DNA of 64,000 nucleotides. Source: an uncultured Blautia sp. (GTDB taxonomy: Bacteria; Bacillota; Clostridia; Lachnospirales; Lachnospiraceae). The position numbers were made by a program, and so were the translations under genes. The notes under the pieces are model-generated. The model was not told where the DNA came from, did no database searches, and was given only the letters and a program-made list of their open reading frames with translations. The stretch is from the NCBI GenBank assembly GCA_946622645.1, contig CAMOQF010000001.1, forward strand, positions 1-64,000. Direction: 5' to 3'. Shown piece by piece: positions 61,079 to 62,573 of the stretch; position 1 is the first letter of the stretch; each line of letters opens with the position of its first letter.

Positions 61079-62416
61079 TTACAACGGCCAATCCACAAAG
61101 AAGGTCATGTTGTTCCATGTAAAGGATTCACATTTGAGACCCAACGCTTTAAAGGATGCCGGTGTCATAAAGTATTTGTAATTAAAATCTTTGCCCTCGT
61201 TCAGCCCCTCGATCACGCGGGGAGAACCGTTGGTCAGGTAGTTGTTGAAGATCCTGTAAGCTTCATCTACAGCCTGGTAAGCCAGAGCCTTGTTGTCGAA
61301 GCCGCCTTTCAGTCTCCTGTTCATCCAGGGATCGCTCACCGGATAACGGACTACCGAATGTCCGGGAGTGTGGCTGGAATTGCATTCCTGATAGACAACG
61401 TACCGTACTTCCGATGGGAAGTAGGGATGGATCGTTCTGTTGAGTACGGTCAGCGCAACGGCTTCCATACCGATGAGACCTGTGCAGCCTGCCTCAGATT
61501 CTACCAAAGCGGCGAGAATGTCTCTGTCGGAGGCCTGTCCGTTGGCCACGCCGAGATCCGTCTTGAATTCGGATACCAGATTCCAGGAACGGTTTCTGAT
61601 CTCGTCTTTTACGACGACATAAGCGCCTCTGTCCTCATAGGTATACGCCTTACCGGAACCGGTCTGCTGAGGAATGAATTCAGAGCAGACGCCCTTGCTG
61701 TCTACAAGATACTTGACGCCGTCCACCGTGATTACGGTATCGGTATACATGGCGCCTGATTTGTCAAAGTAATAATTCAGGCCTTTACTGGTAAGCCATC
61801 CGGTCCTGGCCTTGCCGGATTTCTGGAAGAAATATTTTTTCCCGGAAATCGTGACAAAACCTTTTGTGTACATGATGCCGGATTTTTTCTTGTCGGAATT
61901 GGCCTTAAAGTAATAGTAAGCGCCGCCTACCTTTTTAAGTCCTGTGTAAAGAAGACCGTTGGAGGCTTTGAAATATCTTTTTCCATCGGAAAGAGTGAGC
62001 CATCCTTTGGCCATCATGCCGGTGCTGGGATCAAAGTAACGGACGCTGCCGTTTGAATACTTTTTAAATCCCGTGTACATATAACCAAGAGATCCAAGCT
62101 TGTTGGCGAAATAACGGATTTTTTCTCCGTTTTCATCCTTCTGCCAGCCGATTACCTGATGTCCCTTCTCATCAAAGTAATATTTTCTGGTTTTGATGGT
62201 TACAAAAGAATTCTTGACCGGTACGCCTTTTTTGTAGTAATAACAGACTTTCTTTCCGTTTTCGCTGACGATCTTAAAACCATTTGTGGTAGCTGCGGAG
62301 ACATTACGTGCACCGGCTGTAAGGCTGAAGCCGAACACAAGCAGCAGAACCATCACAAAAAGCTTTAAGCCGCGAAGACGGAAAGCTTGACAATGGGTTA
62401 CTGTTTTTTCGTACAT
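61079..62416 (-). CDS. Secreted cell-wall hydrolase: choline/cell-wall binding-type repeats plus SleB-like (Hydrolase_2) domain
   Basis: Signal peptide; repeats [94 protein letters not shown]. Confidence 0.92.
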
Positions 62417-62467
62417 ATGAACCTCCGTGACGCAAATTGCGCGTCAATAAGCTTCTCCCCTTTAAAT

Positions 62468-62534
62468 ATTCTGTGTAATTGTAACGACTTTGTGAACAGT
62501 TTACACAGAATTCAATTCTGTTCATTACAGAATT
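62468..62534 (-). repeat. Four alternating complementary ATTCTGT/ACAGAAT segments in the leader of the SleB-like gene
   Basis: ATTCTGTGTAA 62468-62478, TTACACAGAAT 62501-62511, ATTCTGT 62515-62521, ACAGAATT 62527-62534 (+ strand). Confidence 0.85.
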
Positions 62535-62544
62535 ATTAACACTG

Positions 62545-62573
62545 ATTATAATCCTCGAACGAATTTATGTCAA
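62545..62573 (-). promoter_or_regulatory. Consensus sigma-A promoter of the SleB-like hydrolase gene
   Basis: Minus TTGACA-17 nt-TATAAT, both hexamers perfect. Confidence 0.9.

Follow-up and report, generated by a model that had tools for sequence, protein, structure and literature searches.

A WalR-type box at the predicted start site of a choline-binding hydrolase gene in Blautia suggests membership of a genus-wide cell wall regulon

A gene for a secreted, SleB-like hydrolase in the 64,000 nt stretch of DNA analysed here (the window) is preceded by a consensus promoter and by a leader in which four short segments alternate in complementarity, raising the question of whether this leader acts as an RNA switch, as an operator for a DNA-binding protein, or as something else. 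The reading we favour, with a probability of roughly 0.68, is that promoter and leader belong to a genus-wide, WalR-type (OmpR/PhoB-family) regulon of cell wall hydrolase genes, and that this regulon is probably repressed. Its basis is sequence: the promoter, the boxes described below, the conservation of box 1 and the association of the box with wall genes. As a member of this regulon the window locus is new and somewhat decayed, and carries an unexplained but modest leader structure.

The hydrolase gene (61079..62416, minus strand) encodes a choline-binding-repeat protein of 445 aa with a C-terminal Hydrolase_2 (SleB-like) domain. In Pfam searches the product scored 85 bits to Choline_bind_3 and 30 bits to Hydrolase_2, the latter being weak but above the cut-off of 27, and the hydrolase domain gave no match in the PDB. 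Judging from the translated neighbours, the gene is flanked by pgsA and an RNase H gene. The nearest named relatives of the genus to which the genome belongs are Blautia. The only close syntenic ortholog, at 62–63% identity, lies downstream of pgsA in L065 and L067, the leaders of which are identical to each other, and a search for a closer one in 299 genomes across the family (298 genera) returned only the window's own gene at E <= 1e-75. A leader peptide was considered and rejected: the 73 aa reading frame that opens in the leader (62304..62525) runs into the gene in a different frame, and no ATG is present at that place in the ortholog leader.

The minus-strand promoter had been predicted to carry two perfect hexamers, and this was confirmed by a 12/12 match to TTGACA-17-TATAAT at 62573..62545 (62545..62573, minus strand). 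It corresponds to the sigma-A consensus, and transcription is predicted from the position of the -10 hexamer to start at about nt 62538. Perfect promoters of this form occur 30 times in the genome, the reversed pattern not at all; by its sequence, that of the hydrolase gene is strong-looking and not unique. The syntenic ortholog has TTGACA-17-TATACT at this position, and much of the spacer is conserved. A promoter-like site matching at 10/12 positions was also seen on the opposite strand (62524..62552, plus strand), overlapping the same -10 region and directed back at pgsA; it is probably a chance product of AT-rich, partly palindromic sequence.

The four segments follow each other on the minus strand in the order 1-1'-1-1', at 62533–62527, 62521–62515, 62511–62505 and 62474–62468, as originally described. 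None of 20,000 mononucleotide shuffles contained 7-mers in this order, and within the window an array of this kind spanning up to 80 nt occurs only once. The last pair of segments does extend to 11 perfect base pairs (62511–62501 with 62478–62468); among 20,000 mononucleotide shuffles, 36 contained a perfect inverted repeat of at least 11 bp. Folding of the leader gave -35.5 kcal/mol, compared to -20.3 kcal/mol for its dinucleotide-shuffled versions (z = -5.5), and DNA folding parameters gave the same two hairpins (z -6). Hairpin P1 (62515..62533, minus strand) is formed by segments 1 and 1' with a pair probability near 1, and hairpin P2 (62468..62511, minus strand) by segments 3 and 4 through their 11 perfect base pairs. 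The small hairpin predicted before the Shine-Dalgarno (SD) sequence was likewise recovered, as P3 (62429..62445, minus strand); it lies directly upstream of the SD and has the form GACGC-N7-GCGTC, with arms at 62445–62441 and 62433–62429.

The ortholog leader is also stable (z -5 to -6) and retains a long hairpin in the position of P2, with unrelated arm sequences, as well as a counterpart of P3 before the SD (GACACG-CAAAA-CGTGTC) that includes one compensatory change. P1 is absent from it. Most other homologues in the genus have leaders with z near 0, apart from a few (L008, L025 and L014) that fold more stably than shuffled versions. P2 and P3 thus belong to this sublineage, and two species do not suffice to demonstrate selection at the RNA level. 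The hairpins may represent lineage-specific 5'-UTR structure rather than a switch, and could, for example, shield the message at its 5' end or give an ordered structure to the region of the ribosome binding site.

Homologues were compared from 29 genomes of the same genus, and in 27 of these the gene is preceded by a promoter scoring 11–12/12. Gibbs sampling without a seed, applied to the 45 nt following the -10 in the 27 homologues and with the window excluded, gave the motif TGTAACAAATTTGTAAT, i.e., TGTAAY-N5-TGTAAH, which is recognisable in 25 of them (total score 508, against 219–247 for shuffled input). The motif fits the WalR consensus, TGTWAH-N5-TGTWAH (PMC9210968), and is linked to the promoter. 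When a matrix built from the homologues, again without the window, was run over both strands of the window, the best position in all 64 kb was GTTAAT-AATTC-TGTAAT (GTTAATAATTCTGTAAT; 62524..62540, minus strand). This site, box 1, lies over the predicted start site, from about -2 to +15, and scores 11.9 bits, with a composition-adjusted P of 0.0055 against shuffled leaders. Its first half, GTTAAT, is degenerate and departs at two bases; the corresponding box of the ortholog, TTTAACAATTCCGTAAT, scores 14.3 bits.

The second-best position in the window is also in the leader. Box 2, TGTAAC-GACTT-TGTGAA (TGTAACGACTTTGTGAA; 62480..62496, plus strand), is inverted relative to box 1 and occupies the loop of P2, from about +43 to +59 (9.4 bits, P 0.016). 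In the alignment with the ortholog its half-sites are largely kept while the 5 nt spacer and the flanking stem arms have been replaced, the pattern to be expected where a protein binds a direct repeat. In the same register, however, the copy in the ortholog reaches no more than 1.4 bits (6.9 bits in an overlapping one), and box 2 is therefore less certain than box 1. The AATTCTGTAAT of box 1 supplies segment 1 and sits beside a sublineage-specific hairpin, which explains part of the segment array.

The same arrangement is widespread in the genus. A search for the promoter followed by the box returned 43 matches in 30 of 41 genus genomes, and none with the reversed control. All 30 of the promoter-box loci that were fetched precede genes for secreted repeat proteins, most of which have NlpC/P60-like or Hydrolase_2-like ends, and Pfam choline-binding repeats were present in 8 of 8 downstream proteins checked. 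With the box inverted, the promoter-linked pattern matched 26 times in 64 genomes (control 0), and in at least 20 of these 26 cases a second SleB-like gene lies downstream. The window genome has this second gene as well (G000:C9, L168), with TTGACA-17-TATAAT and, after it, an inverted box in decayed form, GTTCATAAAAATGTAAC. In two genomes (L111, L121; G004, G016) ftsE carries an inverted TGTAAC-N5-TGTAAT box upstream of the -10, an activator-like position. A relaxed promoter-box pattern matched three times in the window's own genome (control 0), each time before an envelope-type gene: the hydrolase described here, a protein with SH3-like and 3D-like parts (recognised by eye) and a sugar transferase-like protein. 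The bare box, searched without a promoter in this genome and four relatives, was not clearly more frequent than the reversed control, and the regulon claim is therefore based on the promoter-linked arrangement.

The alternating segments had originally been taken as an attenuator-like or riboswitch-like leader, in which pairing among segments 1 to 4 toggles mutually exclusive folds controlling transcription or translation. The array and the stability of the leader are indeed far above chance, the ortholog leader shares that stability, and a 60 nt transcript transiently favours pairing of segments 2 and 3 until synthesis of segment 4 replaces this fold. Exclusive folds did not emerge from the full leader, where hairpins 1:2 and 3:4 coexist with pair probabilities of 0.86–1.0, and forcing the 2:3 pairing, with or without 1:4, gave -27.4 versus -35.5 kcal/mol, about 8 kcal/mol worse. 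No terminator-like site was found between promoter and start codon, nor a U-tract terminator competing with an antiterminator. The alternating 1-1' segments do not occur in L065/L067, P1 is missing from most other homologues as well, most homologues in the genus have no stable leader at all, and an Rfam search of the leader gave no match above the gathering score, only sub-threshold chance matches to snoRNAs. A switch of this kind appears very unlikely. Pairing with the SD gives it some further credit, since the SD of the ortholog can pair with UUCCGU of box 1 and in the window part of the SD is paired in an extended P3, and this raises the variant of a control at two levels, whereby the same stretch would be both a DNA box for a wall-stress regulator and an RNA element for translation. 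Segment 1 (UUCYGU, inside box 1) could pair with the SD (ACGGAG), hairpins P1–P3, which differ in sequence between the two species while hairpins persist, would decide whether the SD is accessible, and overlapping letters would control both transcription and translation of the hydrolase; we consider such a double role even less probable. The lowest probability of all falls to the suggestion that the palindromic array is itself the operator of a dedicated repressor. A perfect 17 bp palindrome, ACAGAATTNAATTCTGT, does lie just downstream of the predicted start site, but the search proposed for further copies found none in the genome when up to 2 mismatches were allowed, and it is absent from the syntenic ortholog; being unique, it is not a shared operator. 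The idea of an operator in the DNA immediately after the start site is supported in kind, although the ACAGAATTsAATTCTGT dyad is not that site. What is conserved instead is the direct-repeat, WalR-type box that overlaps segment 1; another copy, in inverted orientation, lies between segments 3 and 4.

Less easily set aside is the possibility that the box is bound by another regulator of the OmpR family rather than by the WalR ortholog, with the same mode of action. The genome encodes five full-length OmpR-family response regulators, none of which exceeds the YycF/WalR cut-off of 340 bits. The best of the five (C105) reaches 273 bits to YycF, and its gene is followed by those of a histidine kinase and a GerMN-domain (Germane) protein; among PDB entries it matches RegX3 and MtrA best over the full length, which favours an MtrA-like identity. 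The second (C13, 250 bits), the gene of which has a kinase gene and a MutS2-like gene as neighbours, is another candidate. On the other side, the target classes (hydrolases, ftsE) and the spacing of the box fit WalR, C105 has the highest YycF score in the genome, and in every member of the Firmicutes examined the WalR regulon contains many peptidoglycan hydrolases (PMC9210968). Binding by such a different family member is rather unlikely on balance.

For the WalR-type regulon preferred here, the phosphorylated regulator would bind box 1 as a dimer and block RNA polymerase at the start site, tying expression of the hydrolase to the status of the wall; the inverted box about 45 bp further downstream may strengthen repression. 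Judged from position alone, with a box at -2 to +15 of a consensus promoter, repression is most simply the sign of control, and the placement of box 1 would suit repression as at iseA. Many Gram-positive bacteria restrain wall-cutting enzymes through DNA sites of the WalR type. Boxes for WalR (YycF/VicR) are known in B. subtilis from iseA, which is repressed, and from yocH and lytE, which are activated, and sites have been predicted in C. difficile. Shared with these are the direct hexamer repeat with its 5 bp spacer and the class of gene, i.e., peptidoglycan hydrolases and envelope genes. The sites described here differ in that the box lies just after the -10 of choline-binding hydrolase genes, its first half is degenerate in the window, an extra inverted box and leader hairpins are present, and the regulator is a candidate. 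Hydrolase genes such as lytE, the target class found here, are under positive control by WalR in B. subtilis, and iseA is repressed by WalR~P (PMC7299342). A start-site box on hydrolase genes predicts WalR-like repression, a sign opposite to that at lytE.

The MtrA regulon of Actinobacteria offers a further parallel, as an OmpR-family regulator that represses wall hydrolase genes (mepA, nlpC and rpf2 in C. glutamicum), and ftsE is an MtrA target in Dietzia (PMC9599347). It belongs to another phylum, however, and the Dietzia motif is TCG-rich (PMC9599347), unlike the TGTAAC-N5-TGTAAT found here. Four complementary leader segments also recall alternating-segment attenuators such as the trp leader, which differ from the present case in that here there is no terminator, competing stable fold or conserved leader peptide, and the array is not conserved. 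A literature search for WalR together with Blautia or Lachnospiraceae found no relevant work, the top results being unrelated microbiome papers. If the regulator is confirmed, the gut genus Blautia would have a compact and testable wall-hydrolase regulon. The locus also illustrates how the juxtaposition of a protein-binding box and a lineage-specific hairpin can produce a conspicuous array of inverted repeats.

Two further arrangements were seen among the related genomes. The same box also accompanies a lipoprotein-like gene in L124 and L133, where it is placed within the promoter, in the spacer that separates TTGACA from the -10. In many relatives (L010, L016, L005, L015 and others), the hydrolase gene is divergent from a gene for a small, Cys-rich protein (MSDLAATNCGC...), the leader of which contains a conserved, CATATGATGGAGTGTAAA-like stretch that is possibly a sporulation-sigma promoter.
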